Below are positions 750 through 40,358 of a stretch of 64,000 bases of DNA, piece by piece. Both the position numbers and the translations under genes were made by a program. The first letter of the stretch is position 1. Each line of letters starts with the position of its first letter. A model generated the notes under the pieces. The model was not told the origin of the DNA, ran no database searches, and saw only the letters and a program-made list of their open reading frames with translations. The DNA comes from Branchiostoma floridae (lineage: Eukaryota > Chordata > Leptocardii > Amphioxiformes > Branchiostomatidae): the NCBI RefSeq assembly GCF_000003815.2, contig NC_049982.1, forward strand, positions 9,118,717 through 9,182,716, in the 5' to 3' direction.

Positions 750-3700
750 ATGGCGGATGGAGGCTGTGCCAACTGCAGCAAGGTTTTGCTGTTCATTTTC
801 AACTTCTTGTTTTTCGTAAGTACCTTTTTTGTATCGTATCATCACTGCTTAAATCGCCTTTGCTATGGTAGGAAAATGAGAAAAAATCAGACGATAGTAT
901 TATTACATTAATAAAACAGACCAAATTAACGAAAACAGGTACTTATTTTTCATATGATGATCATATACATGTTAATATGTTTGCTGTGGTTTCGATCGCC
1001 TACGTCCTGTTCAGTCCGTATTTCAGGCATCAACTTTAACACTAGTTACTGCTTCATATATCAGCAGTACAAAATGAGTAAGTTAAAATCCATTTTCACT
1101 AAAATCTCTCAAAATATGGCCATAAACCCGATAATGTGCGTGATAAGAATAGATACTTACCGTAGACATTGTTTTTGCGCTAAGCCGTACGTATCCATAG
1201 CATCCCACAAAACGCTTCGTCATTCATTATGTCGACGAAAATACAATAAAGCAATGGAAACCGCTGCTTTATCAAAGGCACCAGGGACATGTAGAACATA
1301 TAATTTTTGAACACCGACCAATCAAATAGCTTAAGTAGAAATAGATTTAGATAAGACATTATTCCCCCTTTGATTTATCTATTCCTTCTCTGTTAAGTAC
1401 ACAATTATGTATAGCACTACTTTACTTTGTTTGCAATTAGCCCTCGGTTATGAACTTGCAATAAAGATTATTACTGTTATCATTATAAGCTGCTTCAATA
1501 CCCGTTATGTTATGCTTCTGAGAAGTACAATTCACCAGATCCTTCCTCGCAGTTCTCAGGTCTGGGCCTGCTGGGTGTGGGTGTGTGGGGCCTGGTGGAC
1601 CCCTCCATACGGTACCTGCTCCTGCTGGACCTCAGCTTCTTCAACACCGTGGCCATCATGAGTATCGTCGGCGGCAGCCTGGCTCTGATCGTCTCCTTCC
1701 TGGGCTGCGTCGGCGCCATGAAGGAGAGCAAGTGCATGCTCATCACGGTAAGGGCTCAGTCACATATAGGTCGTACGATCGTCGTACGATCGCTAACTTC
1801 GGGCATTTTGGAGGACAAAAAACTGTACCTCTCCTGCAATGTTCAACTTTCTTGGTACACAAAATGCTGTTTTGGATCCATGTCGGTAGTTGGTTCTGTC
1901 ACAGCCTGCCTGAAAATCCTATGGCATCAACATCGTACGACGATCACATGACCTATGTGACCGCACCCTAAGGAACAAGAATCAGTTTTAACCAGATTCC
2001 TCCGAAATATCGAACTGAAAGATATTTGAATGTAAGTTCATCTGTGACGGTAGTTAACATAATGATACAATTTTTAAGATTTTATATCCGTACACAAAAT
2101 AAAGCGCTTGAAAGAAAGCTTGTTGGTAAGAGCTTTATTTTGTGTACGGATATAAAGTCTTAAAAATTGTATCAGAACTGAAAGATATTTTGTTCTGATG
2201 AAAAACACTAATAGCATATGCAAATGCATGTTTATTGAGATACCCTTAATCCCTCACAAATTCTCCTAACGGTGTTACATGAACACTTCAAGAAGTCGAA
2301 AGTTCAATTTTCTTGTATCGCTCTGCCAAACATGTCTTTACCTTCAATGACGTGCTGTTCGCTTCTTCTTTTCCAGTTTGCTGTGTGCCAATTCATCATC
2401 TTTGGCCTGATGCTCTCTGCAGGAATTGTGGGGCTTGTTTACAAGGATAGGGTGAGTTGCCGCGTTCTTTTTTTCCAGCATAGTGAGTCCTAAAATATTC
2501 TCGGGGTATCCCTGAATTTTGATATCCGTTGGGCCTAAAATATTGATTTCTCACATTTGCATACCCACAAAACAGCGGTTCTGGGCCTCTAAATTGAACC
2601 ACGATGACACAGACCCTGTTCTAACGCGATGTTTTGTCCTGTTTTGTTGGATGTTTACTCAGGTTGTTACGGAGATGTCATCTTCGATGTCCACCATCAT
2701 TGACGGCACAGAAAAGTTTGAAGACAGGACAACTGAATTCCAGAACTCCATGAAGAGCCTACAGATAATCGTACGTTTAATCATTTTATTGTTACAGCGG
2801 TTAATCTACTCCTTGTGACAAAACATTTGTACACAAAAGGTTCCTGTACTTTAGAACTAGCCATGGTCACAGTTTTGTGGCATTTTATGAAGACACCCAC
2901 GGTTTTGTGATAGGAGGCCGGGAAAGGTTACTAGATGGCTTTTTAGTCTAATATTTATTTACAGACGTCATAAAGTTTAGACTCATGAGTTAGAATAAAT
3001 CATTTTCCAACAATATTCTGCGCGTCAAGTATTAAGAATCCATTTTTCGAAGGAATTTGACTGCTTGTTATTTCTACAGGAAAACTAAAAGCACACGAGA
3101 AGAATTAGATATATACGGAAACAAATTTATGTTGGGTGTCATTGGATAACCTGTGCGTCACATGTATTTTCTGACCTTTTTCCCATCCTAACAGTTCAAG
3201 TGCTGTGGCTACAGCAGCTACAACAACTGGAGAAGCCCAGGATCTGTGACGTCATGTGACTGTAGCGGGGAGTCGGACACAGCCACGTACTGTGACGGTA
3301 CTACGCCTGCGTACTACAGGGTGAGTTGGACATGCGCCTTGTCTAGCAATAGGCATCATTGAAGGGTTTAATTCTGTTCACTTTCTTAGCGGTTATCGAG
3401 AAAGGATAAAAACATTTTTCTAATTTTCAGTCCATACGGAGTCCTGCGAAACGGATTTATTTTGTGTGTTCAAATACTAATTCATAGCCAAAACCTGTTT
3501 TTCCTTCCTTGTGAAGTTGGTACGAACTGCAGCTGAAACGATTGTGTTAAACTTTGTTTTCTCCAGGCTTGTGAGAGCCAGTTCACCGATTACCTGTCCT
3601 GGGGCGTGCAGACCGTGGCTATCGTAACCATTTGTCTCTCCAGCATTCCGGTAGGTGGCATTCAGTACGCCAAGTGGATGAATACGCTATAAATTTCAAG

Positions 3701-4180
3701 ATTGTTTTTGTTGTTAAATAATGATGACATGGAACAGACCATCGTATGCGACAGTACTAAGACTCGCAGTTTTGTAAAGCTTTGGCCATTCATCCGTTAG
3801 TGAGCATTAACCATATCCAGACTGGGCTTTTATTGGCATTCCTGGGACGGGGGTGTCTCATTGGTCATTAAGTTGATTTTATTGGCTGAAACAGTCTAAA
3901 TAGGGAATTTCCATATATTAATACAAAAATTAAAACCAAACCGTTAACAATAAAGGGTTTAAATATTTATATATAAATATTTAAGTCTTCTAAGACTTTT
4001 GTTGTCAATAGCAAACGCAATGACGTCAAAATGACGTCATATACAGTCTTCAATTATCTGTTTGATTATCAGGACTACTTGTTACTAACTAAATTTATTG
4101 ACCCTTTCCAGCTGATCGGATTCTTCATGGCTCTTTGTCTGGTCAACGGCATCGGCAAAAACGACGTCGGGCCTGTGTAA
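750..4180 (+). CDS. tetraspanin T1 (7 exons, 240 aa)
   Basis: Four-pass membrane protein of the tetraspanin family, expected at the plasma membrane or in vesicles as an organiser of tetraspanin-enriched microdomains. Exons: 750-815, 1553-1747, 2377-2451, 2663-2770, 3195-3320, 3567-3650, 4112-4180. All introns are phase 0 with GT..AG ends. The N-terminus is MADGGCANCSK followed by TM1. GFLGCCGA at the end of TM2 appears here as SFLGCVGA. EC2 holds CCG plus four more cysteines, six in all. The tail ends GIGKNDVGPV. TM3 lacks the usual Glu and TM4 lacks the usual Glu/Gln (it has a Pro at the exon junction), as in T2. The start is the first ATG after a plausible TATA/initiator and matches the position in all paralogues. 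Resemblance is to the CD9/CD81-type branch, but I do not assign orthology. Confidence 0.93.
1759..1961. repeat. MITE-like inverted-repeat element in T1 intron 2
   Basis: The ends GTCACATATAGGTCGTACGA and CGATCACATGACCTATGTGAC form an imperfect inverted repeat around about 150 bases of non-coding sequence. The left arm also has a tandem TCGTACGATCG motif. The element begins about 10 bases after the exon 2 donor. I see no clear target-site duplication. Confidence 0.55.
2063..2174. repeat. fold-back element in T1 intron 2
   Basis: Two long near-complementary arms begin TGATACAATTTTTAAGA and end TCTTAAAAATTGTATCA; they include a matching TATATCCGTACACAAAATAAA block. They can fold into a long hairpin of about 112 bases. 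A perfect 16-bp direct repeat, GAACTGAAAGATATTT, lies at 2012-2027 and 2175-2190. The right copy touches the hairpin; the left is 35 bases away. Confidence 0.7.
3959..3984. repeat. 26-bp perfect AT palindrome in T1 intron 6
   Basis: The palindrome is built on AAATATTTATATATAAATAT and is directly followed by a second small palindrome, AAGTCTTCTAAGACTT. This could extrude as a cruciform. Two CRE palindromes lie about 40 bases downstream. Confidence 0.6.
4021..4039. promoter_or_regulatory. twin CRE palindromes in T1 intron 6
   Basis: Two perfect TGACGTCA sites lie at 4021-4028 and 4032-4039, 11 bases apart and so on the same helix face. In animals this octamer is the full CREB/ATF site. They are 73 bases from the last exon of T1 and about 1 kb upstream of T2. 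They could be an enhancer for either gene; function is not shown. Confidence 0.55.
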
Positions 4181-5061: not shown

Positions 5062-8000
5062 ATGGCGGATGGATGCTGCGCCAGCTGTAGCAAGGTTCTC
5101 TTGTTCATTTTCAACACGTTCTTCTGGGTAAGTTCAGCTAGCTAGCCTCGACGTTTGTAAATGCGTAAGTGTTCGTTATGCCAATACGAGATTACGTCCA
5201 GTTTCCCCGTATAATTTCTGTAGACCGATTCACAACACTTTGTACAAGTACAATATAAACAGATGGATGGACGAAAAAATGCCTTGTGTTACATGTTCAG
5301 GGCTCAGGACAGATCGTTTGCTACACTTCAACAGATAATCCCCATTTAATGTTTCAACATTCGTTAAAAAGTGGTGTTCCGGTGCCTTGTATACCCATTG
5401 CAGCCATTGTAGGTACAAAAGCACTGGTTTCAAACTTAAAGAAATGCGTTGCTGTGATGCAAATATCCTCAGAAATCGTAAAATAATGGTGACCTTATCA
5501 ACCCTCATCGTTGCAGCACGGTTACCTAGGAACAGTAGATATTCAATAGTAAATAGGGTTAGTTAAGTACATCAGGCAGCGATCACAAACAAGCCTAACA
5601 GCCGACCAATAAAACCATATTTCATTGATTTAAAAGAACCTATACGTTTTGTTATAATGCAAGTACCTTCTGAACTGCAAAACTACAGTATCGGCCACTC
5701 TGTTAAGGATGTTGTTTGCTGTATACATATTAATGTTGCCCTAATTAAATGTTTGGTTAGCGTCGAGATTCCGATTACGATATTGTGTCGTTCTGGTGCG
5801 GCGTGTTCGAGGTGATAAAGGTCGACCGGTCGGAAAAATGAAGACAGGTCGACTTGGTTATATCCAGCTCCTCAGTATTTCTGATTATTTTCATACTTAA
5901 CCTTATGTGTCGAACTTTCTCATCTAACGTTAGCGTTTGTCATAACCATCTTCAAAACAAAAAATGATATCACGCAGCGTGCTAGAGGAGTGACGTCATG
6001 TGCATAACAGGTTCCAGTTGCCATGTTGACGTTTCCCCACCAGTTTGTTATGACGACATCGTTTTGCATGAGGACATTTATTTAGTTCTTCCTGACGTGG
6101 CAACCATTTCGAGTTCTGTATTTAGGTGGTTTGTTTAACAACACTCCGATGAAAATCTCGTTAAATACTTTTAAATGGCATTTGTTTGTAATTTCAGAGA
6201 TTATGATTGTATAAACACCACAGGATTACATATTAACGTTAAGAACATGTTGTGCAGAATAGATGTCGTCGTGTTACGGACCAATATACGTATAATTCAA
6301 TTGCAATAACTTTTTTGAATATAAAGAAAATTGTATTTTTCATCTGAATGTGAGGTAAATGGATTGCGCTTACAAAATTCCGAAATATAATATTATATAT
6401 TTATCAATAAAAAAGAGAAAAATCGATAACATGTACTAAATGATGAAAGAGGAACCTTCAGACGTTAGTCTCATCAATCATCAAACCTGTGCACGTAAAA
6501 TAACCCTGATCAGCAGCAGGGGGGGTCAGCAGGGGTGGCCCGGTGTGCTTGGCTGAACACGAGGCCGTATTGCACTACATGCATGACTCCTGAAAAACCA
6601 TCATACCTCGCCTCAATTGACGATGACAAAGGGGAGACGTAAAATGTGCACATCTTTCAAACAGGACATCTTTAAACATCCTGTGTATGTCTAGTTACTA
6701 GCTAGTTGATGGGAGCCGGGCTCCTCGCTGTGGGGATCTGTCCTCGAAATCTCCTCGATCCCGGCTTGAAGAACTTGACCGTACTCGTTCTCTCCTTACT
6801 ATTTAGTATTATCCTTAAAACGCACCATACTTTGCCTCATTGAGGATAAAGCGGAAGAGCTAAAAGGCATAAGGTGTCCATGAGAAACTATGATATCGAC
6901 ATGAGGTAGTAACAAGACATCTTTAAACATCCTGTCTATGTCTAGTTGATGGGAGCCGGGCTCCTGGCTGTGGGGATCTGGTCTCTCGTCGACCCAGGCT
7001 TGAAGAACTTGACCTTACTCGACCTCTCCTACTTCAACGCGGTGTCGTACATGTGCATCGCGGCAGGGGGCGTGATTATGGTGGTGGGCTTCCTGGGCTG
7101 CTGCGGCGCCATCACGGAAAACAAGTGCATGCTCATCACGGTAGGGATCTTAACCATGTACAAAATAGAATCCAAATGTTTTACTTTGAAGCAAATGTCA
7201 TTGCTAATTAAACGGCACATTTTATGTCAGTATGAATTTAACGCGTATACAGCAATGTTACTATCACAGGCGACAATCGTTGTCGTCCGTGATATTATAA
7301 TGTCTGACAATGAGACAAATGAACCTCTTGAAATGACCGCAAATCCTGATTTTTTTTATTTATTCCACGTTGGTATCAGAAATGTCGAACAATTTACGTA
7401 TTGGTAGCGATGGCAACAGAAGAGTAACGGTTACCGTTACCCCAAACTGGTTCTAGAGTTTTGTCATTTATTAATTAATCCAAACCCTTCTTCTCTTAAG
7501 TTCGCGATTTGCCAGTTCCTCATAATCGGCCTGATGCTGTCCGCTGGTGTCGTCGGTCTGGTCTACAGGAACAGGGTACGTGGACTAGCATCTACACATA
7601 CGCGATTGTAATTAACTTCACTACCCATTAAGATCAGACTGGTATTATGATATGAATATATGTCAGACAAAACGCCATACGATTAGTGTAATGATTGTAT
7701 CACAAGCCATGAATTACACTACACTACATTTGTTCTTTCCCTTTAGGTGTCCGAAGAGTTGACGTCTGTTGTGAATGATGTTGTCGACAGTTCTACAAAA
7801 ATCGACCAAAAACCAGCATACTTCCTCGATGCTACAGTGGCACTACAGGAAACCGTAAATATCATACGTTGGTTATTAGAAAACAGATATTTGTGTTTTC
7901 GTAAGCAGACGTACTTCATTTATATTCGTTGCTATAACAATCATACCATCGTGCATTTGTGCTTTTCCCCTTCCCCTAAAGATTTTCCCCTTCTTCTGCG

Positions 8001-8937
8001 TTGAAATTATGTGTGCTCATTTTTTTTGCAGCAAGCAATTTTGAGACAGATTGCTTTCGTTGTACGTTTGTAATTAGACACTTGTACTGTGTTTGTTTGT
8101 GATCACAGTTCAAATGTTGCGGTTACGACAGCTACAACAACTGGCAGAACCCAGGTAACGTGCGCTCATGTGACTGCAGCGGAGAAACGGACAAAGACGA
8201 GTACTGTAATGACAACAACCGACGTTACTACAGGGTATGTGGCGATTATATTCACGAAACTGGCCGAAAAAGTACAGGGAGTCAAAAATATCAGCATTTC
8301 CTTGATTTACTTCTTTATTGTACATGCATACGTCAACGTGGCCAACGTTTTTTTCTGATGGTTACCATTGTTAACCGTCTCCTTTCGGAATTGAACTGAA
8401 GTGCAGCCAGGGAAGCTGACCATGATTGACGTCTCTCCATGTTTTCCAGCCTTGCCTGGACCTTTTCGATGAGTACCTATCCTGGGGTGTGCAGCTGGCT
8501 GCTATCACTGTCATGGCGCTCTCCGTCCTACCGGTACGTTTTAATTACGTTGTCGATATCTTTTTTTTCGAATTTAACATTGCTGCATGATGAAGAATAT
8601 TTCAGGAAAGCCACAGCTCTAGCATGGAAAAAACATACCATAGTTATTGATAAGAGTGATCTGTGATTGTTTGAGTGGATCCAACTTCTCAGTCCGGTCT
8701 TCCACATGTCTGGAGCAGCTTATGATAACTATATTATAGTGTATAGAACTGATCATGTGTTATCCAGATCCATGTATCCATTAGATATTGCTTGTCTCAT
8801 TTCTTTAAACAATGATTAACATCATCATTTTCAACTTACAATTCCAACTAACCCCTTTTGTTAATATACAGCTGATCGGCCTGTGTATGACCATCTGTCT
8901 CATCAAAGGAATAGGCACCGACGTGGGAGTGGTATAA
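5062..8937 (+). CDS. tetraspanin T2 (7 exons, 239 aa)
   Basis: Exons: 5062-5127, 6946-7140, 7501-7575, 7747-7854, 8109-8234, 8450-8533, 8872-8937, all phase 0. The N-terminus is MADGCCASCSKVLLFIFNTF; TM2 ends GFLGCCGAITENK; the CCG exon reads FKCCGYDSYNNW with SCDC and one further Cys before PC, so six cysteines in EC2. The tail is KGIGTDVGVV. Exon lengths match T1 exactly and the sequence is closest to T1, so the two are likely a recent tandem pair. Like T1 it lacks the polar residues usual in TM3 and TM4. Exon 2 is preceded by a damaged second copy of itself in intron 1 (6706-6803). The ATG sits in CATCATGGCGG, the same start context as its neighbours. Confidence 0.93.
6662..6803 (+). pseudogene. 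broken duplicate of T2 exon 2 in intron 1
   Basis: This stretch repeats 6912-7035, which includes the acceptor and first half of the real exon 2. The shared part includes TGATGGGAGCCGGGCTCCT and GGCTTGAAGAACTTGACC. The copy has a 6-base change/insertion after ATCTG and diverges after the LDLS codons. It lacks the small-loop end, TM2 and GFLGCCGA, so it cannot work as an exon. The flanking intron is also duplicated with a period near 245-250 bases. Confidence 0.8.
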
Positions 8938-10364: not shown

Positions 10365-13300
10365 ATGGGCTGCTGTTCGGGTATCATCAGAGTGCTTCTC
10401 TTCATCTTCAACTTCGTGTTCTGGGTGAGTGCGACTACTTTATGGGGTCCCTTTAACATCAACGATCCGTCAGCAATGGTGGAAGGTTGTGGAAGTCCGA
10501 ATGTTCATTTGTCCAATTCACATACTTTTATTACTGTTAGTTTCGTCAGTTACTGTTAATTTGTTGTGACATATTGTTGCATGTTGTGTTGATTTTACAC
10601 AACTGCAATAAGCAAGGATAGATATTTAAGGGGAGTATGCTTGTCCTTTTCACTCTATTCCAAGAGAATGTTCCTGATTTTGGGATGTCGAAAGTCGAAC
10701 AGCATTTAAAGAATTTATAACATTGTAGTCGTCTGGTTATACATCGATGTTATCATCGTGTTTACGACATGAAATAATGAACGTATGATTCTCGTCATCG
10801 ATCCTACCAAGGTCCCATGAAGCTGTAACGACAGTAGCGCAGTGGGGATGTAAACGTTTTGCGGTATCTGCGCAACCCTGCAATGTTTACCTACCTGAGC
10901 CGTGGACAAAGTGATACCATGTGATTCTGCCAGTAGGATTATTTATCAACTGAGTCCTCTTTGTCGACGCTAGATGTTCGTTGAAATAGTTTTGAATTGG
11001 TTGGTCGCTGCGGAGGCCAACTGGAAGTGAAAACTGATTGTGTTGGTTTCAATTGGCCGAAATTATCTCAACGTTTATCATGACGTATGTCCGCCATGCA
11101 TGAAGCAGTGAACCCCCCTCCAACCCTCCACGAAAAACCAACGGTAAAAGAGCTCCACATGTAATAAATAGTAAGACAAGCTGGCATGTTTTATAAAGAT
11201 GGAAATATGTCTATATGCCTTTGAAAACAATCATTCTATTGTTGTTGTTTTTACTTTTCTATACCTGTTGCAGTAATTTGCATACATAACAGTAGCAACC
11301 GTTATTGTTTCGCAAGCACCTAACGATGAATTTGTTTGTATGAATGGATTGAAGTTCAAACATCGCTGATGGAACTTGGTCTAACTAGTTCCTATTTGTT
11401 TCTCAGCTGATAGGCCTTGCCCTGCTGGGTATCGGGATCTGGCTGCTGGTGGACCCTGCCAGTAAAGCTATCCAGAGTGTCCTGTCGTTCTATGGCATCG
11501 CGGTGTACATCATCATCGCGGCGGGGGCCATCACCACCGTGGTCGGCTTCCTGGGCTGCTGCGGGGCCTGCAAGGAGAGCAAGTGTCTACTCATCATGGT
11601 TAGTTATGTTTCAATACATCAAAATATATTCATTAGTCAGCTGGTGACAATGGATGATTTGAATAATATAGTATCAATCGCACCCAATGCAATGTAAATT
11701 TAGATAAAGGTTGTTTGTTCTTGGTACAGATTTGGTTATCACTAATATTAGAACTAATACTTTTATTAAGTGTCTCAAATTTTGTTTGATGTGATATCAA
11801 TACTAATTGAAACCTTACTGTTAAAGCTTTTCGATATGTTGACATTATTATACCTTGTACTTATTGGTACGTTTCTTAACCAATTGCAATAGACTACTTT
11901 ATCCACATATTCATTAGCATTGTGAAAGGGACCGTATGGTCAAACCCGATTGTTATAATGCACATGCTCATGGCGAAAGGATTTCACTAAAAATTAATGT
12001 TAAACGGCGTCCGACACAAAGCTTAAAAATCTTAAGAAACTGACTCAAACATTCAAACATTGGACATGCTATCGGTGTCAGACCACATTCATGACGGTTG
12101 TTTTTCTACTCTACAGTTCTCGATATTCCTCGGGATCATCTTCGCTGTGGAGGTCGCTGCTGGCATCGTGGCCATCGTCCAAAGAGGTTTGCTGTCGGAC
12201 CTGATTACTGACAGTTTTGCCGACATCTTAAATCAAGAGCCTGACTTGGAAAGCTTGACCGGAGCGGTCAAAGTCGGTGTCGTTGCCATGCAGGCCGGGG
12301 TAAGATATCATTCCAGTCATCGTTCTCTGGTCTGGCAGCATAGAATCACAGAAATATTTTGTACGTTACATGGTTAACGTCAACGAAGAGTCAAATATTA
12401 TTATTTTTACTTATACAATCTCAAACTTAGCACTTAGTTTTATGTGCACCCTCTATTGCAGGATAGTTCACTTTTGATAATCAACAATGGTATAGACATT
12501 CTATTATTATCTATACAACACCAGAAAATATTGTCATCTCTGAATTTGATCGAACTAGTTTACCATGTCACTGGATAGTGTTCTTTCCAAGCCTGATAAA
12601 ACAACTTGATAGCTTGCATATGACGCTACTGTTTTCGCTTGCTTCTGAAAGGTGTGTATCATACGATTGTCTGTGATGTTTTCAGCTCCAATGCTGTGGA
12701 CTTAATGCCACGAGTAACTGGGCAAACCCGCAACTTGAAGACAGCTGCAAATGCACCGGGCCTACGCAAGGTGAGTGCTTCTAGAAGAGACATGTACAGC
12801 TTGAGGTCAAAATATTTTAATGTTACGTACGTGGATAGAACGACCTACGTTCATGCGCAACGATTCAATCGATGGCAATGATAACCATGTAATTGATTGA
12901 ACAATGAATAAATATGAAAATCATATGAACATCGGAAGGATTTATCGGTAGGGATTTTGTGGTAGAATGGTAATGATTTTCACGAGTAAGGTTTAGACAC
13001 AATTTTTTTCTTCAAAGTGATTGGAAGGTGGTGAGGCAACGTTGTTTGGTAAGCAGTACGTACAAGAAAACAACAAGAAGTCCGCTGTCAATCATCATCG
13101 ACACAATGTGTCAAGGGATCAGTGGCAGTGACAATGCCATAAATGGACGATCAAAGTTTTCAACCACCATGTAACTATACATTGGTATCAAACTATACAT
13201 TTCACTTCACTTGTTTATTCAGGCGTTCCCACGGTTCCACCCGGCATCACGACTGGACCTACTACCGCAGCTCCGTCAACAACAAGCGTGGTGATGACAA

Positions 13301-14399
13301 CTTCTAACGGCTCCGTCCCTGTCGGACCTGGCGGTGGCGGTACAGGCGGTGGGAGTCAGGATCCGGACGCGTGTGTAGGAGGGCTGTACCAAGTAAGTGT
13401 GGCATACGTGTAGCATATGCGGATGTTACTTAGTCTCAAATCGAATCATTGACATTATTAATGTCATTTTCCCTCCACCTGTGCCGGTTTTGTCATGTTT
13501 TGTTGTTATTTAAGGCTAAAAAATTGCCTAAAATAAAAGATCAATTAAAATTTATAAATGAGAATTAAGTGCAGAAACACCGCAAGCCGTCTAATAACAA
13601 TATTATTTTTGATAGATATAACGAATGTAATAGCTTTAATTTAATTCAATCAATCATGACAACAATCAACCATGCAATACATGATAAATCATGCGATAAA
13701 TTGAATGGTATACCTTAATAAGATATACCATTTATCGTTCAAGCATGCTTATCACTGAAACTGTATGAGAAAGTGTTTGAAAAAGATATGATGTTTTAGC
13801 AGTTCATGGCCAAGACATCACAGTCAGATGAAATCGTGTAGACACCTTTGTACTGTTTGCTGTACACTGCTTACAATTTTGTTTCCTTCGTACTCCCTCA
13901 CAGCCATGCGAAGGCAAGCTGCAGACGTTCCTTGAAGACAACTTCCTGATTGTTGGCGTGGCGGCTCTGGTCTTCTCTGTTGTCCAGGTACGTAACTATG
14001 GCAACACTTAAAACGATATGGGAAATCATAAGATTAGATTTTAAATTGGTCATGTTTGATAATCATTTACGTGCGGCTACGATATGTAACTCATGCGTCA
14101 GCTGTCAACAGACAGCACCATGTACAAGCATTGTAAGCATTCCTTGATTCCTGTCAATAGGAATTCTGGAAAGTAGCCTAAGGCTATGAAGAAACAAAAT
14201 ATTGTTCTTTTTGAGGTATAAAATACCTGTCACTACCTGATAGATTAATAATTGTATATACATTTTGTGATTAAGCATGCATAGAAGCTCATCAAATAAA
14301 ACCCCTATAACTCTTCTTTTTTTACTCTTTCAGATCATTGGAATCTGCTTCTCCTGCATTGTTATTAAGAACGCAAACACCGACGTGGGGCCAGTTTAG
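10365..14399 (+). CDS. tetraspanin T3 with mucin-like EC2 insert (279 aa)
   Basis: Exons: 10365-10424, 11407-11598, 12117-12299, 12686-12770, 13223-13392, 13904-13987, 14334-14399. The start gives MGCCSGIIRV. TM2 ends GFLGCCGACKESK, and TM3 carries the usual Glu (AVEVAAG). The TM3 exon and EC2-start exon are fused (61 codons, exactly the 25+36 of T1/T2), an exact intron loss or absence. The CCG exon LQCCGLNATSNW has an N-glycosylation sequon and ends in phase 1. It joins an extra exon, about 57 codons including the split one, rich in Thr, Ser and Pro, then a GPGGGGTGGGS run before DACVGGLYQ. EC2 has six cysteines. The tail is KNANTDVGPV. The insert looks O-glycosylated and makes this the longest protein of the array. 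Confidence 0.93.
13223..13392 (+). other. mucin-like EC2 exon of T3
   Basis: Phase 1 at the start, phase 0 at the end. The peptide runs from a Thr/Pro/Ser-rich half (PTVPPGITTGPTTAAPSTTS and on) to a Gly-rich flexible half with an NGS sequon, then DPDACVG, which supplies an EC2 cysteine. Ordinary tetraspanins of the array have no such exon. The T4 equivalent is shortened to about 22 residues (19281-19345). Confidence 0.85.
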
Positions 14400-16174: not shown

Positions 16175-17689
16175 ATGGGCTGCTGTTCTGGTATCATCAG
16201 ATTACTGCTCTTTATCTTCAACTTTGTGTTCTGGGTGAGTTTTACTTCATGTAATCGTTTCTAACATCTGTCAGCAGTTATGGAAAGGTTGAGTCACACA
16301 CACATATTTATATCCCTGTACTAACTCAAAATAGATTGACAAAAAAAGACAAAACCGTGAGGCTTGCATCCTACCTTTTCAATTTCATCCAAAGAGTATT
16401 TAAATTTGACAAAGATTATTTAGGACGAAAAGATTTTTAACTGTTTAGTACGCTCTAACATGCTGTTCTAATTTCGGGTCTTGGGCTGCCGAACTCAACA
16501 GTGACGTCAGCTCAGCCAGCAGTTGCCCAATAGGAGACTTGAACTTGGTACCTTTTACCTACTAGTTGATAGGCCTTGCCCTGCTGGGCATCGGGATCTG
16601 GCTGCTGGTGGACCCTGTCAGTAAGGCTATCCAGGGTGTCCTGTCGTTCTATGGCATCGCGGTGTACATCATCATCGCGGCGGGGGCCATCACCACCGTG
16701 GTCGGCTTCCTGGGCTGCTGCGGGGCCTGCAAGGAGAGCAAGTGTCTACTCATCATGGAAAATATATAAATAATATGTAGATAGATATATGAATTCATAA
16801 ACGTTTATAATTTTTGAAACGCATTGTATACATGTAACGTTATAGTAGTATTATTGCACGTGATCCGAGAAAAGACACTATTCTATTCGTACCATATATC
16901 ACAAAGGCAAAAACACAAGGACATTCTTAATAGATTGCACATTGACACTTTTTTCATTGGAATGATTTGGATATTACAAAAGGAAACACCTTGTCCTAGA
17001 TAAAATTCTGGTTAACGTTGGCACCACGGTCACTTTGTCAGCATATGTCCCAAGCCTTTGAAGTTGGAAATGGACAAAGTTACTAAACTATTTTCACCAA
17101 ATACGCCATATTTAGCATCAAAGTCGTTTTCTCCCTTCGCAGTTTTCGATATTCCTCGGGATCATCTTTGCCATAGAGGTCGCTGCTGGCATCGTGGCCA
17201 TCGTCCAAAGGCGTTCGCTGAAAGAACTGATGACGGAAAGTTTTACAGACATCTTGACAAAGTCGCCAGCACTGGAAAACACACCGCGACGGATCCGGAG
17301 GGGACTCGAAGCCATGCAGATCGGGGTCAGCTGTTTTAGTTGTTGTTGTGATACCCCGCTGTCACATTACATACGTATTTCGCGATCGCAGGAAGGTCGG
17401 CAAATTTTAAGATCTTCAGAGGGTCTTGCGTATTTGTCGCCCCAACACTGTCCCTGTCACATTTAAGCGAGGCTCGTGCGATGGACGGTGAATACATCTA
17501 TGATAATGAACCTCGCATGACCTCTTGCACGCGGACAAGGTAACACAAAACGTGAAATTTTAACCAATGAATGGAATGCGCGGGCATAATAGAAATGTTA
17601 CAAGAAAGGAAAGTGTGTCACAAAGCCAGCCTACATACTATCACAGGGGCCACAATGTCAGAATTGCCCTCACATTTCCAGAAATTCAA

Positions 17690-18100
17690 TATTTGTAAAC
17701 GAACGGAAGTCGAGCGAACGTCGCCCAAACGTCGGCCGAATGACGGGCGTTCGCCATCCGATTTGCGCTCGATGATTAATAAGTAGGTCTGTGCTCGCCT
17801 ATCGGTCTTCAATTGTTGGATTGACGCACGACTATCAATCGAATGTCGACCGATACCCTTGCGAGGTACGCACGATTTGCACGCACGATCTGCGACTCGG
17901 TAACGAGCTCTGCTATCTCAGAAATCTCCTGCGACTTGTCGCTAATGTTAAGAACATGTTTCGCTGTACCGCGACCATCGTACGACCCCTGAAAATCGCC
18001 GGCGATCCCTAAAAATCGCAAAATGATCGTGAGTACACCGGACGTCTTACTCACGAAAATGTCATTTAGAGCTCGTAGACTAGTCTTCCGATCGATTTTC
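17690..18100. repeat. CG-rich insert in T4 intron 3
   Basis: This stretch is richer in CG dinucleotides than its surroundings and full of short inverted motifs (ATCGTACGAC, GTCGACCGATA, CTATCGGTC). T3 intron 3 has nothing like it and is much shorter (386 bases against 1430), so this looks like an insertion after duplication. I cannot define its ends or class. Confidence 0.4.
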
Positions 18101-18469
18101 GCCTAATGTGAGGGGGGGTATAACCACGCTTCAATGTAACTAAGCAGTGCGCTAATGAAATATCGCAATAACCCGCTCTTAATGACGTATCCACCATGTC
18201 AATAGAAACAAACAACAATGTATGTAAGTTGAATTAAGTTAGCCAGTGTACCATTATGTGGATTTTTATGTACATGTACGTTGTATAAGATTCGAGTGAA
18301 ACGTGTTCACAGACAATTGATTTTCAAGGTCGTCGGTAACAGTTTTGCCTTTTCACCCCGGTTGATTCCTGTCCTAAAAAGATTTCACCTTCACTTTTTT
18401 TGTTTTCCAGCACAGGACACTCAGGTCCTTGAGCATGTCATTCAGTCAAGCCTGTGATATTGTACCAAC

Positions 18470-18600
18470 ACATGTAATTATACAACATCAAACACATAAC
18501 AACATCACACATATAGACAATTGCACAATATTTGTACAAACACACTACAATGTCACATATATACACGATTACATAATATATAAGCAAATAAAGACGCACT
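18470..18600. repeat. degenerate tandem repeat in T4 intron 3
   Basis: Two to three diverged copies of a unit near 48 bases, built on ACAACATCACACATATA..ACAATTGCACAATAT, within an A/C-rich run. Not present in T3. Confidence 0.4.
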
Positions 18601-20721
18601 AACTAATAGCAAAGGAAAGTACAATGGTGAGGTTGTTGAAACACCGTGTTTAAAGGCTTCCAGACCAATGTTTTTCCAAGTTAAGGGTGCACATTTTGTA
18701 TGGAAGTCCTCAATTTGTGATGGAAATGTAATCGTGTCACTCTAGCTTGCTTAAGCTTAAATGCTGTGGACTCAATGCCGCATCGAACTGGCAATTCCCA
18801 GAATCGGCCCAGGGATGCCTCTGCACCGGAACGAGAGGTTTGTGCATTTTATTAGGAAACATATGATTTATCGTACACTATGTTTACGAGTAAGAACTGG
18901 ATGTAAGAGAAAAATAGCGAGAAATTGAACGGAGCGGTGGAGTTCATTATGACAGATCACTATGTAATGAAGAACTTTGTACATTTTATTTTACTAATCA
19001 TGGATTTACAACTAACGCAAGTCTTTTCATATTGTCTCATTACACAATTTTCACAAAACTTATCCCTAGTTATGTATATCAGGAAGCGAGCAAAGAAATG
19101 ATTGCGACAACATATTGTCACATGTACGTGTGAAACAACGAGAAAAAGATTGTTTGATCATCACACGGTTAGGGGTGGATACAAAATTGACACAATTGTA
19201 AATCGCAGAAATGGGTTAGGATCGACTTGGCTATTGTGATAACTGATACGGCCCAGTCTCCAACAGTTTCTTCTAAACAGGTGACCATGGTGGTGTCTCG
19301 ACTGGAACTCTGGATCCGGATTCCTGTGTAGGGCTTTTTTACCAGGTATGGGTCCGATTTTCAGTGATTTCTTGTGGATAAATTTGAGTGTTCAATTCTT
19401 GCCTCAAGGTGACATTTCTACTTCTTTCTAGTTATCACCCAAAGCACAATCTCAGAATCATATGTACAGTTGTCTTTACTAAAATGTCTTCTTAACACGG
19501 AAACTGAACAATGTATGATATAAAGATGAAGATACATTAGCATTAGAATATTTTAATCAGCCATGGGCCTCCTTGGTTCTACTCATTGCTTTCTTGTTGT
19601 ACTTCAATTATATATGTTTGACTAAAATAATGCCTTTAATAAATGCTTCGATGGTTTAAAACCAATCTGATGTGCCGTACATGTTGAAGTCACGACGTCT
19701 GAGTCAATTCGTAACTTAAGGTATGTAACAAATGTAACATTGTTTTTTGCGACAGTTTGCTGATGAGCACTTATCTTATTTTGCCGCAGCCATGCAGCAT
19801 CAAGCTTATACGTTTCCTTAAAAGAAAACTCCTGATTGTTGGTGTGTCGGCTCTGGCATTCTCCGTCGTTCAGGTTCGTAAATATGGCAACACACTGTAT
19901 ACTTTTCAGAAATGACATACCGCATTTTGAATAAGTAGAAATTGAGATTTTAAAATGAGATTATAACGCCAAAGTCCTCTGGGGTAGTGAATAGAAAATC
20001 TATCTAATCACGGATAACAGCACGGATAGACAACGTGGCCAAAGGTAGTCTGACCGTCTGTGTATCTTTATCCATTTCTTTCGTCCTCTTCAAGTTAGGT
20101 TTTGAATTTCAATGGTGGAGACAAAACGTTTCCATATGAACATGCGCACTTTGCAACCTAACGATGCTTACTGTTTATTTATCACTATTTCGCAGATCAT
20201 TGGAATCTGCTTCTCCTGTATTGTCATCAAGAACAGAAACGATGTGGATCCAGTTTAGAGGAACACCATACACACTACTACTCTGACAGCTAGCAACAAC
20301 CATGTACATTAAAGAGAATGTATTCTATTCGCCCATAAACATGGTGCATGTAACATTGATCTTACTTATACTTGCTATTTTTCTACTGTGAGATTTACTT
20401 CGAAATTCTTGTTTTGGCTTACATTTCTTGAACTCTAAGAACTGATAATATAATGTTTTATTGCAATAACAATGAATTTGATAATAACAAATGATTGTTG
20501 ACTTGAATTTGGAATCACGAGATGGAAATCCATGTGGTCATGCTATTCTATAGACGTATATGATCAGAGCATCCTTCTCAAGCGTTATAATCGTTTTCAT
20601 AAATGCTAACATAAAGTGGGAAGAAAGCAACTTTCCTTGTGAATGATTTGTGAGTTGTGACAGTGGTAACTTATTGTAAATATCCAATTCAGTTTTCTTT
20701 GATACATTTCCTCTGTACGAA

Positions 20722-25319: not shown

Positions 25320-28300
25320 ATGGCGGAAGGCTGCTGTGCGTCGATCATTAAGACGTGTCTGTTCATCTTCAACTTCATATTCTGGGTGAGTTTTGGTAGC
25401 GTATCAGCGTGTTGTTGACAAGCGATGCCCAAGCTTGTAAGGGTGTGGTCACGACAGCATGCTTCTTATCTCTGCCATACAGAAACTCCGAGTCTCTCCT
25501 TGATATTTGTAGGACGGGCATGTACGCAAAGAATCCAAGCTTCGCTCTCTGTTTGTGGTTGCATTATCCTTACAGAATTGTTGGTTAGGACCACCATGTT
25601 CACGTACAAGTTCACGCAACATGAGACAAACTCAAGACTGTTATGGCGGGTAACAGCTGCGATGACTGCCCGCTTCACTTATCGCAGACACAGCGGGTCC
25701 CTCTTGTTATTCTTTTCATCCAATATGCAAATCGGTGGCCGCCAGCGTTATTTTCCCATCATGGTCGAAAGTGCATGGAAGTTTTCTGTCACGGGATGTT
25801 GTGTGAAACTTGAAAGAATGGACATGAGTAAGGTCCGTGGGCGGAGAGGGAATTAGTCAGAGCTGATCTGCTTTCTCTTCAGCCCTTTGGCAAACGTTCA
25901 AATCCCGGCCTGGGGATGGTGCTTACCCACACCGTTAGGGGGAGGGGAACAGCCAACGTAAACAAGGCGGACAGAAGACCTCACTGTAAGCGCATGTGAA
26001 ATCTCCTGACATCGTCGCCATATGTCGCCTGCGATAATTTTGGTGTTCTGTTTCTCCGCAACGGGCATGTCCAATTCAAAGCCTTGTTGTACGTAGCATT
26101 AACGTTACATCTGTATGTGTGCTGATGACGGATCACCTTCTACCAGCATGGGGTAAAACAAAGTTTCAATTATTTATGATTGTTCAGTCAACACGTCCAT
26201 TCCATTTTTGTCAGCACATGGAATAAAGTAACTCCTTGTCTTCCAACAGTACGCTTTACAATGTACAAATTGAACACTGAAGTTCATATTCTAACTATTG
26301 TTGAAATTTGAAAAGGAAAAATAAGGTTAGACCCAAGTGAAATTTATTCTAGACGGAACAACGACGATGAATTTGAAAGGGCCCGTCGCTCTGCGCCGTA
26401 ATCACATAGTTGGAAATCTCTGCCGGGAGGAAACCACCCTGAACCCAATCAGTCATGACATGTGTGCTGCCCCACTTCTTGTCACACGACTCAAAGCTTA
26501 TTTCAAATATCCGGACATGTTGGGACACATTTCACATCATAAATAAACTGCATTTGACTTGTATAGGTGCCCCGCCCTCACCAGCAAACAATATTTTTCG
26601 TTTTTTTTTTTTTTTTGGTGTGTGGATCGTTTCGATGACCTCTTATTTTGATCAGATCAAATGAATGGATAAATAAATGAAATCATAATGTACAAAATCG
26701 ATCCCCGTTTTATTATAGAATATTCCGTTACATCTAGGGTCAGGTATCCCTGGTGAATAATGGACTCCATGTGATGCCCTGATGGCCCTCAGCTCATTAA
26801 ATATGCAGGACATTGTGATATCCAGGGCCATGGGTCCTGGATCTAAAACCTGTTGATATCGATCGTACCACGCAATTCAGCACATCTTGCTGTTACTTCA
26901 TAGACCAGACATCCTCAGGTAAAAGTGATTACACGAAAAAATGTAGCAGCGATCATTCAGGTTTCATACAATGGTGTTTGAATCAAGGGCGTAGAAACTA
27001 AAAGATAGATATTTGACTTCCCTGTTTTAAGACAAGGACAAGGCCTAGGGCATGTTTGAACATGGAGGTTATACGGTTTAAACAAAGGGTGAATGGACTT
27101 GAATTATGGGAAAGAATATGCAATACGGTGCAGCTTGTAGCGTTACAATTATTGTGAAACAAAGTTGGTACCATAAAGCTTTTTTGTTTAGCATGTTCAA
27201 GGGTCTTTGAACGTGGAGATGCTGTGACCCATGTTTACCGTGGGTGGGGAGCTGTGGTAGGTATACAGACGTGATTTCTGACATGGTCATGTGAAGGACC
27301 TGTCACTGTGTCAGACCCTTGTGTACAAGACGTCAGTTTGTACTCCTCCATGCAAGTCGTCACGGGGAGGTGCACGAAGACATCTTAATACTTCGCTGAC
27401 TGAAAAGGAAACACAAACAAGAATTTAAAGAAATGCTTGTAGTAAATAACAGTGTTACCTGAAATGCGAGCGCGTAACGTTATATGAAAGAAAGCTTACA
27501 GTTACACTTGAAATAAATCGTAAAGGTAAACATGTGGGTGGATGGTAAGTATTTCAGAAGGTTTTGTTAGGTCTCTCCAAGGAGAGGGGCGAATCATTTA
27601 TTGTTGCGTGGTGTGGTGTTGTCAAGTAATAGGTCATGTTCCTTTACTCTCCAAGCAGAGGTAGAGTCACGTAGATATAGTAGTCGTCGCTCTTAGAGGA
27701 ATGCCGGTGTAATTTTTCCGACTACTACTATATCTAAGCAACTTAACCTCTACTTGGAGAGTAATGTTCCTTCGCGGTACGAATGTTTTCCTTTCAGAAA
27801 CGATATCTGAATCATCTGCAGATGATGATTACATGTGGATGTTATCCGACGAATGACAGTGAACAGCTATACAGACGCTTCGTATTTCCAGTCATGGTGC
27901 AACGTTATCGTGGGACGTTTTAATAGGAGATGGCAGTTTACCTTTTTCAAGAACATTCTAGACTGAACGGTAGTGATAGAATAAATCCATACACAACTGA
28001 CAAGTGGTCTCGCATGGACGTTTCTATGATGATGAATTCTATGAAACTTTGTTGACTTGCCACTAGTGGCAGCGGTTGACAAGGGACCGTCGGAGATACG
28101 CGCGCTGGAATTTGGGAAATGTAAACATGTGGGGCTGTGGGATTCACTATGACCCATTGTCGCTTATAAATACGTTTGTTGCATTCAGCCAAGAAGTTTA
28201 TATACATACATACATCGTCAGAGATCCGCCGTGTTGTGCTTCGGTCTGCAATTAACAATTTCCCCCTTCCGACTCAGCAAGATTATAATAGTTAAAAGCG

Positions 28301-31300
28301 GAACTAGACCGGATATTGATATTAGTAAGCGTCTTCAGCCAAAAATGATATCATTTTCACAAGGAACAAGATATACAAAATGTAGCACAGCTGGGACAAT
28401 GAAGATTATATAGGTGCAATTACAACATTAAATATCACATACAGAAACGTTTAGTTTTAATAATACTAGTATTCGTTCCCCTCCTTCAATGATGTTTATC
28501 ACAGTTCATGGACGTATTCTAAGACTAATAAGATACACCTTCGCATTTATATGAAAAATTAACTCCGATGATTACATCTGGTGGCATTTCAGGGATTTTT
28601 GACTCGCATAATTTCTGCGGCCTGTCCGCCTACGCAATTTGTTGCGTTGATTGCTCGAATTCTTCAGATTTAGTTATCAGGGAAGGAATGCACCGCGTCT
28701 GTGTGACGTAGTTAACATGATTCAGGTCTCTGAAATGGGGCGGGGTAGATCCATGCGTCAACTTCATTTCCTTCCAGTTAATATGTAGATAAGCTGACGT
28801 CATTACCATTTTCTCAAACTTGACATCGTTCTTCCGGGTTCTTCCATGCGGAATCACATGTCTTTCTCGTGCTTGCTAATCATGCACGCTCGACAAATCA
28901 CGTTATAGGCACAGTTATTTTATTTCCAAGCAATGCTAAGAATTGCTGGAAAGGTGTATGCTATCGATAGTATCGTCTGTAAAACCTTTTAAATTACACA
29001 TGTGGCGTTGCACGTGTATATGTGACCTGGACATGACTTATGGAAGACCGCAACAAACTGAGCATTAGTGTCAGGCTGGGCGGAGCGTGTTTTTTATCAA
29101 AAAGATTTATGGTGACTTGGCACAGCCAAGTCAGAAGTACAGAATGTCTTCAGTCCACTGTGAGTCCGCGCGAACTTCCGCTTTGACTGGGCGTGACTAG
29201 AGCAACGGGAAGAGGATGGGCGGACCCATAAAAGGGGTCGGTCATATATCTTCGTTTGTTTCCTTTTAGGAATATATATTCAAATAAAGTACAATTTTAC
29301 CAATTTTAGCATTTTTTCGGTTAATGTGGCAATGGGATATTCCTCCCGTCAGCCCTGATTGACATACTGATCCAAGTCCACGGTCAAATAAAAGCTTGAA
29401 TTTCTCCTCTTGGCAACCGTTAACGAATATATAACGAAAAGTCCTTCGCTAAACAAGACCAATGTAAACACTGTTAGTATGCTAGTCGTGAATGTCTTGG
29501 CAGATTAGCCTGTAAACACATAACAAAAGACCGGGCTGTGGGGACCGATCATACATGATTGCATTGCGGTGGGAATCTGTGGGGTCATGTAGAAATTAGG
29601 ACTGACAGTAAAAAAAGGAAATATGCATAACACAATGGATCATGCACAAACACAAACGCTGTAACTGCCTGAAACAACAAATAGAAGTACTTAAAACATG
29701 CCATTTAGAATTCCCTTTCAACCAGAGGTCTCGGGGTCGCAAATTAGCCCCCACCCCGCCATTGTGGCGTTGATTGTGTCCAGAGGCATGTGGAGGTGAA
29801 AATACCGACGGTTAAGAAGAATGCCACGGTGCTTAATCAGCAATTAAGGTACAGGGCTGCGTCAAGTCAAGGGCGGCCCAAATTCACGTGTCCTTTTCCC
29901 CGGGCACAATTGGACTGTTCTTCATTATTACTCTCTAGAGTTTCACTAATACAATATACAGTCGTCGTCTTACGGTTACATCAGGAGGAAGAAATGCGTT
30001 TGTGAAGTTGCCCTGGCAAATTGAGTTTCTATCCTAGCAACAAAGCCACAACACAAGGTGGTGTAGTGAATATGCGAACACGACCTGAGTGGCAGGGATG
30101 TTTATTGTACACAGTGAGTGACGTGGGAAAGTACTTTGTAGTTAACACATGCCAGTTGGGCACCATTCCATGCAAATTCCCTGAAAGTACATGTACTTCT
30201 AATGGAACCCGCTAGGGTTCCCCAAACTACTCTTGATTCCTTTGAACGAGACATTTAAAAACTTAAAAAGGTAGGAATTCACTACCTTTTCGACTGCCCT
30301 AGCTCGCTGTTCAGAATGGATTTAAGCGTCTAATAAAGCGTGTTTCCAATCAAAGTGACTTATAGCTTTGTTCCTATTCTAGCAGGTGTAACGTGTAGCG
30401 TGCATAGTCCAGTGGTTAGCGACATTTGGAACTAGAAGCCACGAGTTCGATAAGCGCTGTGTCACTCACAAGACATGCACGCTACTGGAAAGGGTCGTAG
30501 TCCTTAGGATAGGACGTAATGCCATGGTCCATTGTTCATTATGCTGGTCGAAAATTTAGGAGAATTTTCCCGTACAACAAACCTATAAATATTGCACTTT
30601 CTGTCTTCTCTGTCTACTGTAGCGGACCGCAATCCTTTGATAGCACAGGACGTTAAGCCACGGTCCACTGTTCTTTGTGCTGATCGAAACTAGGGCATCT
30701 CCCCGGATAACGCCCTTGGTACAATGTGCTATACTGCAGTAAATACTGCAAACTGTAAATGCTGCTCTGTTCGTCTTCTCTGTCACGGCCAGTGGAAGAA
30801 TATCTATCAAGTGAGCTAAATTCGTTCGATATCACTTTCCCCAGGTCGCCGGGGCCGTCCTGCTGGGGGTGGGGATCTGGCTGCGTGTGGACCCGAGGGT
30901 GGCCCAGGTGGTGTCCGGAGAGCTCAACATGATGTGGTTCTACAACGCCTGCTACGTGCTGATCGCCGCCGGCGTCATCACCATGATCGTGGGCTTCCTG
31001 GGCTGCTGCGGAGCCATCAAGGAGAGCAAGTGCATGCTGATGACGGTGCGTGATTGGTCAATGAAAAAAGTGACGTCAGAACTTCAATGTGACGTCAAAA
31101 CTTCATGTTTTTTAAATTTCATTTAGACTATTGGCAGACTTTGCTTAATAGCATTTACTCAAGCACCTAGATTATTTGGGAAACGGTCAGACGTTTCATC
31201 CACTTTTTTTCGCCTGACTACATGTCTAACCTTCATGCTTTGCATTGATATATTTGGTGTGACAGCGATGTAATAAGATACATTACTTACAGATTATCAT

Positions 31301-33004
31301 TTTTCAAAAGGATGAATGTTGCAATATGTGAATAAAATTTCTCAGTAACATATCTACTATGCTGGATGTTGCGACCTTTCGTACTTGACCTAACGGGTGT
31401 TCTATTCTGTGTGCAGTTCGCCATCTTGCTTGGTCTGCTTTTCGTTATCGAACTGGCTGCTGGGATACTGGCCATCGTGTACAAGGACAAGGTCAGTACG
31501 GGTGTCTCTCAGTGACGTCATGGCGGACTTTTCACGGCTTCGTTATGAAATAAGTTAATTCCTGAAGATCCTGAATTGATATCGCACCTATGAAATGTAT
31601 AGTTACGCTTACAAGTCTGTTGATTTAGGCGTGACTAATACGTTAGCCATAGCTAAATAGATGTAATAGGAAGAGATATTCGTGTACTGCCTACTGTAAT
31701 CAACTCCTCAATTTTACGCATGCTTAAAAAAATTCTGTATTGTATTGTAAGTATGTTTCAAAGTATGCTAAATCGGAATTGAGTTGAGTTAAGTTTACTC
31801 AGATCCACAATTAAGGGAGGAATTATCATCGTCAACGAAATAAAGCCCAAGAATGCATTTGTAAGCGTTGCACGTCTTGTCAATTTGTTTGCGTTAGGTC
31901 GGAGAATACGCCAGACAATCCTTCACTGATGCCCTCGCTGGAGAGACGATCGAAAGCAAGAACGACGACTTCCAGAGCGCCGTGAGAGGTATCCAGAGCA
32001 AGGTAAGACTCCCTGCACTCATATCTCGTCTTTGTGCATTTTGCGCACTTGTTTCTGTATCTCAAAAGGATGAGGTATAATAACTACGTGACTGTTGCCA
32101 ATTTTCAAAGACTACACACACAAAAGCGTTATAGTTGAATAAAGATATCACAAGACCATATTTTCCTTCATTCATCATCGTAAGGTGTTTGTAATGTCTG
32201 TAAACCAGTTAATTTGTTTTGAATTGCATACAGTTGAGAAAGAAGAAATGTCGCCATAAAACATTTTTTTTCACCCTTAGTTCACCTGTTGCGGTTTGAC
32301 GGCCACGAACAACTGGGCCCTCCCGTGTCTGGAGTCCACGTGTGTGTGCAACATCATCACCCAGACGGGCTGCAAGGCTGTCATCTCCGTCCCGCCATGC
32401 GCCGTGCACCAGGTATGGCTAGGGAACTCACTTGTTTAAAGCGTCCCCTTACAGGATACATTGGTACTGCACTATTTTTCAAGACCCTACATATGTGGTA
32501 CACGTATTCTGGTACATTTGTATATGTATTGAACCATATTGTGTTTGCTTCTTCTTGCAGCCGTGTCTTACGGAGTTTGAGTCCTTCCTGGCTAACAACA
32601 TTGTCATCGTGGCGGGAGTAGCACTGGCCATCGCCATAGTCCAGGTAGGCAATCCATACTACTGTCAGAAGTTAGAAAGCAAGAAGAGGTTAATGCGAGG
32701 ACGGAGTAAATTGGACAACCTTTTTTGTCATGTATGTCGTCCCCACTCGTCCGATCGGTCTTTTTCTGTGGTTATTTTTATGAACCAGTATATTGGTAAG
32801 AATACGAATAAGATAAGGTGTCAACTGACTCAACGTACAAACATTCAATCGACTTCTGCAGTGTACAATGAACCAGTAACCAGTAATCTATTTTTATGAG
32901 TTTGAAGGGCTAACATAACGTTCAACTCTCTCATCCCACAGATCATCGGCATTTGCTGCGCATGCGTCTTGATGAGGAACATCTACGGCGAAACCATCGC
33001 ATAG
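25320..33004 (+). CDS. tetraspanin T5, eight-cysteine EC2 (7 exons, 241 aa)
   Basis: Exons: 25320-25385, 30845-31045, 31417-31491, 31898-32002, 32281-32412, 32561-32644, 32942-33004, all phase 0. Intron 1 is 5.5 kb, the longest in the array. N-terminus MAEGCCASIIKTCLFIFNFI; TM2 ends GFLGCCGAIKESK; TM3 has the conserved Glu (FVIELAAG) and TM4 the usual Gln (IAIVQIIGI). EC2 reads FTCCGLTATNNWALPCLEST and carries eight cysteines including the final PC, a pattern shared with T6 and T8. The tail is RNIYGETIA. The frame upstream of the ATG stays open for 91 codons back to an ATG at 25047; I keep 25320 because every paralogue starts there. Confidence 0.93.
27645..27763. mobile_element. MITE with 9-bp target duplication (T5 intron 1)
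   Basis: Ends are TACTCTCCAAGCAGAGGT and ACCTCTACTTGGAGAGTA. The arms also pair further in (GATATAGTAGTCG with CGACTACTACTATATC). A perfect 9-bp direct repeat, ATGTTCCTT, flanks it at 27636-27644 and 27764-27772. It has no coding capacity. The 9-bp duplication suggests a Mutator-like family, but this is inference. Confidence 0.85.
29218..29235 (+). promoter_or_regulatory. possible internal promoter in T5 intron 1
   Basis: GGGCGG is followed by CATAAAAGG, in the only locally GC-rich part of this intron. It could be an alternative T5 promoter or a remnant of a mobile element. No matching first exon is visible downstream. Confidence 0.25.
30398..30800 (+). mobile_element. SINE-like repeat with duplicated tail
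   Basis: The head has a tRNA-like A box (TAGTCCAGTGGTTAG) and a weak B box (GAGTTCGATAA). The tail motif, GGACGTTAAGCCACGGTCCA..GTGCTGATCGAAA..GTCTTCTCTGTC, occurs twice, at about 30505-30612 and 30648-30783, the first more diverged. It ends about 60 bases before T5 exon 2. Confidence 0.5.
31071..31097. promoter_or_regulatory. twin CREs at the start of T5 intron 2
   Basis: TGACGTCA at 31071-31078 and 31090-31097, inside a 19-base tandem repeat (GTGACGTCA.AACTTCA). A CCAAT-type ATTGG lies at 31054-31058. A further perfect CRE follows exon 3 at 31513-31520. The first bases of T9 intron 2 carry a similar GTGATTGGTCA..TGATGTCA order. Confidence 0.5.
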
Positions 33005-40252: not shown

Positions 40253-40358
40253 TAGCCTGGGTACCATCCGATTTCTACCGGGGCGTTACCCTAAAAGATA
40301 TTTGTTTTATGGTAGCGAGTGTAAGGAGCCCTGTAGAAATCGGATGGTACCCAGGCTA
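40253..40358. mobile_element. MITE with 26-bp perfect TIRs and 9-bp duplication
   Basis: The left end begins TAGCCTGGGTACCATCCG and the right end closes with its exact reverse complement over 26 bases. GACTGCTCC flanks both sides (40244-40252 and 40359-40367). The 106-base element has no coding capacity. The same terminal motif, TAGCCTGGGTACC or TAGCCTGGTACCATCC, occurs at 38900 and several times in T7 intron 2, so the family has several relics here. Confidence 0.88.

Follow-up and report, generated by a model that had tools for sequence, protein, structure and literature searches.

A long Thr/Ser/Pro- then Gly-rich loop in EC2 of a lancelet tetraspanin encoded in a tandem gene array

The large extracellular loop (EC2) of tetraspanins has been described as compact, with one part that is conserved and another that is variable and to which partner specificity is tied; CD81 molecules from which segments of the loop have been deleted are cited there as still reaching the plasma membrane (PMC6773723). 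According to the available text of PMC2650405, the nine ancestral introns of tetraspanin genes are all in phase 0, and 7 of 10 derived introns are frame-breaking, including the large-loop introns 4d (ROM, RDS) and 4e (Tsp10). The same source places 36.7% of 79 new introns in the small loop, followed by the variable part of the large loop with 24.0% of new introns in a region given as 25.3% of the sequence. As derived introns in the variable part are already published, a new phase-1 intron accompanied by a change in length fits the known behaviour of this region. The original prediction had held that a flexible insert is unusual because EC2 is a compact fold; the compactness is indeed described, but so is a variable part with derived introns of its own.

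The closest described proteins come from the survey of Huang et al. 2010 (PMC2965184), which lists 39 Branchiostoma floridae tetraspanins and counts 25 as species-specific. Its TSPAN4 cluster has 23 members, among them seven TSPAN8-like-A and five TSPAN8-like-B genes. Table 1 of that paper records a CXC pattern in some amphioxus TSPAN8-like proteins, and its class 6-cys-b1, comprising TSPAN8 and some amphioxus and ascidian TSPAN8-like proteins, is defined as CCG--[DN][WY]--[P]XXCXC--C--GC. A tetraspanin has also been reported as expressed in the lancelet gut diverticulum (PMC6015868), which we do not equate with any of the genes considered here.

The 64-kb stretch of lancelet DNA analysed here (the window) contains a same-strand tandem array of nine modelled tetraspanin genes, numbered T1 to T9, and the start of a tenth (Table 1). 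The subject of this report, T3, carries CCG, NW and CKC motifs and six EC2 cysteines, and has P where the 6-cys-b1 pattern has G before the last cysteine. The TSPAN8-like genes of the amphioxus TSPAN4 cluster are likewise clustered and have an EC2 pattern (CCG, NW, CXC, C, C) close to that of T3, and to judge from these sequence features the array is probably part of the published TSPAN8-like cluster. Two differences should be noted. The available text of PMC2965184 does not mention a Thr/Ser-rich EC2 insert like that of T3, and the published cluster is interspersed with 69 to 223 non-tetraspanin genes, whereas our window was modelled for tetraspanins only. The RDS/ROM and Tsp10 genes resemble T3 and T4 in possessing derived, frame-breaking introns in the large loop, a likeness at the level of the loop as a whole; unlike T3, they are not described as having a low-complexity insert in the text of PMC2650405 available to us.

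The Pfam tetraspanin family (PF00335) was matched by T4 at 151.8 bits and by T1 at 140.7 bits in a scan that took in T3, T4 and T1, and the remaining six models align with these three. A scan of the window against Rfam at gathering scores gave no matches. Within the array, T7 is the most divergent model, with a long branch of 3.71 in the tree; it lacks a cysteine pair near its start, has no CXC in EC2 and ends in a Lys/Glu-rich C-terminal tail (KKKEKRKEAAEMEKMQAS). The expected T9 exon between TM3 and CCG is absent (59324-59858), and since a 100-base run of N (59499-59598) falls at this place, the absence probably reflects an assembly gap. A partial second copy of T2 exon 2, 84% identical over its first 85 bases, lies at 6706-6801, with the genuine exon 2 about 150 bp downstream, and is read as a decayed exon duplication. 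Five inverted repeats were found in the window, four of which (2063-2174, 27644-27764, 46256-46320 and 40252-40359) are hairpin-like, intronic or intergenic, and have arms of 31-47 nt that are 85-100% complementary; these four are perhaps small non-autonomous transposons.

Table 1. Positions in the window of the tetraspanin genes and of the exons of T3
Feature	Position	Strand	Remarks
T1	750-4180	+	
T2	5062-8937	+	
T3	10365-14399	+	complete, 7 exons
T3 exon 1	10365..10424	+	start, TM1; phase 0 end; ATG context CACAACATGG; donor score 10.6
T3 exon 2	11407..11598	+	TM1 end, small loop, TM2; 97% identity with T4 exon 2
T3 exon 3	12117..12299	+	TM3 and EC2 start; equals T1/T2 exons 3+4 (75+108)
T3 exon 4	12686..12770	+	CCG motif to Cys4 (C148, C149, C166, C168); phase 1 end
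T3 phase-1 intron inside EC2	12771..13222	+	T4 counterpart 18838-19280; absent in T1, T2, T5-T9
T3 exon 5	13223..13392	+	insert of 46 residues, T/S/P-rich and further on G-rich, followed by DPDACVGGLYQ, which holds Cys5 (C224)
T3 exon 6	13904..13987	+	Cys6 (C232) and TM4 start
T3 exon 7	14334..14399	+	TM4 end, tail, TAG stop
T4	16175-20258	+	tandem sister of T3, same intron layout
T5	25320-33004	+	
T6	34485-39225	+	
T7	41709-47351	+	
T8	49619-55134	+	
T9	56428-60980	+	6 exons modelled; one expected exon missing at N run
Tenth gene, exon 1 only	62658	+	

T3 consists of seven GT-AG exons encoding a tetraspanin of 279 amino acids, in which we found no stop, frame break or missing GT/AG. The protein matches PF00335 at 150.6 bits (cut-off 32.1; E 6.8e-44) over residues 8-270 and positions 1-224 of the 225 in the profile. 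Four transmembrane helices are present in its AlphaFold model, and between TM3 and TM4 it contains the CCG motif and, with C148 and C149 (followed by G150), C166, C168, C224 and C232, more than the at least four EC2 cysteines expected of a tetraspanin. Seven PDB sequences are matched, from CD9, CD81, CD53, tetraspanin-7, tetraspanin-15 and UPK1B, with E values of 3.2e-28 for CD9 and 6.5e-26 for CD81. The alignments with the solved CD9 and CD81 structures run from TM1 to the CCG region and resume in a weak TM4 stretch, leaving T3 residues 158-226 uncovered. No tetraspanin with a Thr/Ser-rich EC2 insert was recognised among the matches listed in a search of literature titles and the starts of abstracts.

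The region originally singled out, from 12686 to 13392, begins exactly with T3 exon 4 and ends exactly with exon 5, and our analysis confirms that exon 5 and its odd composition are real. The exon is 170 bp long with GT-AG flanks, and the assigned frame is the only one of the three forward frames free of stops. The insert spans residues 174-219 (GVPTVPPGITTGPTTAAPSTTSVVMTTSNGSVPVGPGGGGTGGGSQ), of which 34 of 46 are T, S, P or G. This count was reached by none of 7044 overlapping stop-free 46-codon stretches taken from both strands outside the modelled exons (best 23), nor anywhere in the other eight gene models (best 20). The GC content is 0.624 in exon 5 but 0.374 and 0.329 in the introns on either side, and a GC content as high as that of the insert occurred in 0 of 9728 overlapping 137-nt segments outside modelled exons. 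Codon scores favour the assigned frame both for the exon (+9.3 bits, against -0.8 and -4.7 in the others) and for the insert alone (+5.3, against -5.6 and -3.8). Splice matrices were trained on 41 acceptors and 41 donors from genes of the array other than T3 and T4. They give 9.1 for the acceptor at 13223, where the training set runs from 0.3 to 15.0, and 5.5 for the donor at 13392, where it runs from 4.0 to 11.7. The open frame, GC content, codon usage and splice scores together lead us to reject the insert as a misread intron. Skipping of exon 5 would not yield a normal tetraspanin, as it shifts the frame and brings an early stop before TM4, and joint skipping of exons 4 and 5 keeps the frame but loses the CCG motif. 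A simple tandem-repeat expansion was also rejected, as Tandem Repeats Finder detected no repeat inside exon 5. The matching T4 exon ends in DPDSCVGLFYQ, against DPDACVGGLYQ in T3; over its 21 whole codons it scores -1.3 bits in the assigned frame and +4.0 in a frame containing a stop, so that it backs the T3 exon by its ending and not by its codon usage.

About 50 Thr/Ser/Pro- then Gly-rich residues had been predicted to follow the CCG region. The composition holds, for 46 residues, and their place can be given more precisely as the interval between Cys4 (C168) and Cys5 (C224). A CXC motif is present in seven of the nine models (T1-T6 and T9) and absent in T7 and T8; EC2 of T5, T6 and T8 contains eight cysteines instead of six. 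The distance from the motif's second cysteine to the one that follows is 55 residues in T3, 19 in T4, 9 in T1, T2 and T9, 7 in T5 and 6 in T6. The loop is thus longer in both T3 and T4, compared with at most 9 residues in the other paralogs that have a CXC.

Mucin-like domains consist of long Thr/Ser/Pro-rich tandem repeats. The T/S/P part of the T3 insert amounts to about 34 residues with 13 T/S and 7 P, in which no tandem repeat was detected, and the term mucin-like, used of it originally, is overstated. The likeness to mucin-type O-glycosylated membrane proteins lies in the extracellular Thr/Ser/Pro-rich stretch, which in T3 is much shorter, shows no detected tandem repeats and is enclosed by two cysteines; with a cysteine on each side it is a loop rather than the stalk that had been envisaged. 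O-glycosylation of the loop is plausible on composition alone, and the sequon N202-G-S within the insert possibly carries an N-glycan. Another sequon, at N152, is not part of the insert.

The description of T3 exon 5 as an extra exon does not stand, since T3, T4, T1, T2 and T5-T8 all have seven exons. T1, T2 and T5-T8 contain six introns, all in phase 0, and T9 agrees with them on either side of its gap. Six introns are likewise present in T3 and T4, but the third of the common layout is absent, so that their 183-bp exon 3 corresponds to the 75-bp and 108-bp exons 3 and 4 of T1 and T2; in its stead they have the phase-1 intron inside EC2, which among the nine modelled genes is, as predicted, limited to this pair. 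The EC2 exon is accordingly split into 85+170 bp in T3 and 82+65 bp in T4, and is a single exon of 99 to 135 bp elsewhere. T3 and T4 do not conform to the class that PMC2650405 calls CD63-like, which has introns 1-6 in phase 0 throughout; intron numbers are assigned here by order in the gene and not by alignment with the genes of that study. The two genes are sisters in the tree with support of 100/99, and together with their common intron layout this indicates that the architecture belongs to the T3/T4 pair. As T4 possesses a matching 65-bp exon (19281-19345), and exon 5 accounts for 35 gap codons in the alignment of the two genes, the T3-specific feature is a part of about 35 residues and not the exon itself. 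The T3 insert has no reliable alignment to T4, and hence gives no sign of selection on its sequence. A match of the insert to intron sequence of T4 is unsupported: the intron-exon stretches of the two genes aligned weakly when forced, and no hit was obtained there by local blastn at E 1e-3.

AlphaFold predicts helices at residues 3-35, 47-76, 79-105 and 232-271 of T3, the last of which takes in the end of EC2, and the ten-residue pLDDT blocks of the membrane helices are mostly at least 80. Residues 167-229 have pLDDT below 50 and are assigned to neither helix nor strand. This stretch extends past the insert on both sides, and the EC2 core ahead of the insert is also weak, the ten-residue blocks between 111 and 170 having values of 51 to 69. 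The model is shallow (8 window sequences, without a control; mean pLDDT 66.6, pTM 0.54), and such a weak model neither proves disorder of the insert nor demonstrates folding of the EC2 core. The prediction of a flexible Thr/Ser/Pro- then Gly-rich stretch in EC2 is nevertheless borne out to the extent that the stretch is coding-like and has pLDDT below 50 at 167-229 in this shallow model.

The sister gene has features of its own that bear on how the T3 loop should be read. Exon 2 of T4 (16566-16757) differs from that of T3 at 5 of 192 positions (97% identity, dS 0.063), and the other six exons have dS of 0.46 to 1.34. In the spliced alignment the longest identical run between the two genes measures 124 nt, beginning at codon 44 and extending just into exon 3. 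When the codon columns were shuffled 10000 times, no run of this length arose (maximum 78), and blastn found no similarity between the introns adjoining exon 2; gene conversion limited to the exon is probable from this pattern. T4 exon 2 also lacks a GT donor, ATCATG being followed by gaaaat at 16758, with an in-frame stop after three codons (16752-16780), and owing to this damaged donor T4 may be non-functional, polymorphic or misassembled. It could therefore be asked whether T3 and T4 are a decaying or misassembled pair of which the odd EC2 exon is a by-product. Along with the lost donor and the uneven divergence of the exons, the run of N in T9, which shows the assembly to be imperfect, and the tree branch lengths (0 for T3, 0.41 for T4) would agree with this. 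Against it, T3 is intact, the seven exons of T4 are open apart from the exon 2 donor, and relative-rate counts do not bear out the decay of T4 suggested by the branch lengths: 18 against 12 sites when pooled (p 0.36), a difference that is not significant, and 6:5, 6:6, 10:4, 9:6, 5:4 and 5:0 with T1, T2, T5, T6, T8 and T9 as single outgroups (p 0.06 to 1). We consider decay or misassembly very improbable as the source of the exon. Scarcely less improbable is that the main transcript is spliced to a weak acceptor within the exon and in phase, at 13271 or 13346, so that the loop is mostly shorter and T4-like and the insert is seldom included or is intronic. The frame is preserved at either site, both of which lie upstream of the cysteine, and the second would give GGGSQDPDAC, near the length found in T4, but they score 0.3 and -0.4 against 9.1 at 13223, where the worst of the 41 training acceptors scores 0.3, and the part of the exon upstream of them is open, GC-rich and coding-like.

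A more serious contender accepts the exon as real and regards the extra codons as a tolerated, near-neutral expansion in a permissive loop, without a specific function. The low-complexity composition, the lack of a reliably alignable T4 counterpart and the variable loop length among paralogs all suit such an expansion, as does the dN/dS ratio of 0.44 between T3 and T4 (dN 0.188, dS 0.428), which suggests weaker constraint than in T1/T2 (0.26), T5/T6 (0.32) or T5/T8 (0.37), with the qualification that dS is lowered by exon 2. It is opposed by the maintenance of the frame across 170 bp, by splice sites within the normal range and by the failure of Tandem Repeats Finder to reveal a slippage origin. 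A near-neutral expansion accounts for the same data almost as well as the explanation that we prefer, and we hold it to be quite possible, if somewhat short of an even chance.

Our preferred explanation, to which we would give roughly even odds, is that an ancestral EC2 exon was split and that about 35 codons were then added in T3, producing a disordered, glycan-bearing variable loop. In the ancestor of T3 and T4 a phase-1 intron would have divided the EC2 exon just past Cys4, so that the variable loop, which runs from Cys4 to Cys5, would have come to occupy a separate exon; in T3 this loop exon is about 35 codons longer than that of T4 and would encode a 55-residue Thr/Ser/Pro- then Gly-rich loop, whose disorder is a prediction of the structural model. 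We infer that the direction of change was a gain of the intron, and a gain of the insert in T3 rather than its loss in T4. As T3 retains its four membrane helices and the full set of six cysteines, its core should still fold, and from what is known of the family EC2 would do so normally, with the segment from Cys4 to Cys5 left floppy. On passage through the secretory pathway the loop would probably be O-glycosylated, possibly with one N-glycan at N202, and might act as a flexible glycan-bearing spacer that alters which partners reach EC2. A stronger version, in which the intron gain freed the loop exon to change in length (from 65 to 170 bp) and T3 thereby acquired a loop with mucin-type glycosylation that screens EC2 from partners or keeps them at a distance, seems to us unlikely.

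The T3 loop is a real but modest variation of the known variable part of EC2. If the preferred explanation is true, a partner-binding tetraspanin loop has been lengthened, and probably glycosylated, following the gain of an intron in a lineage-specific array, and T3 would represent a natural case in which to study the tolerance of EC2 to insertions and the influence of glycans on partner choice.
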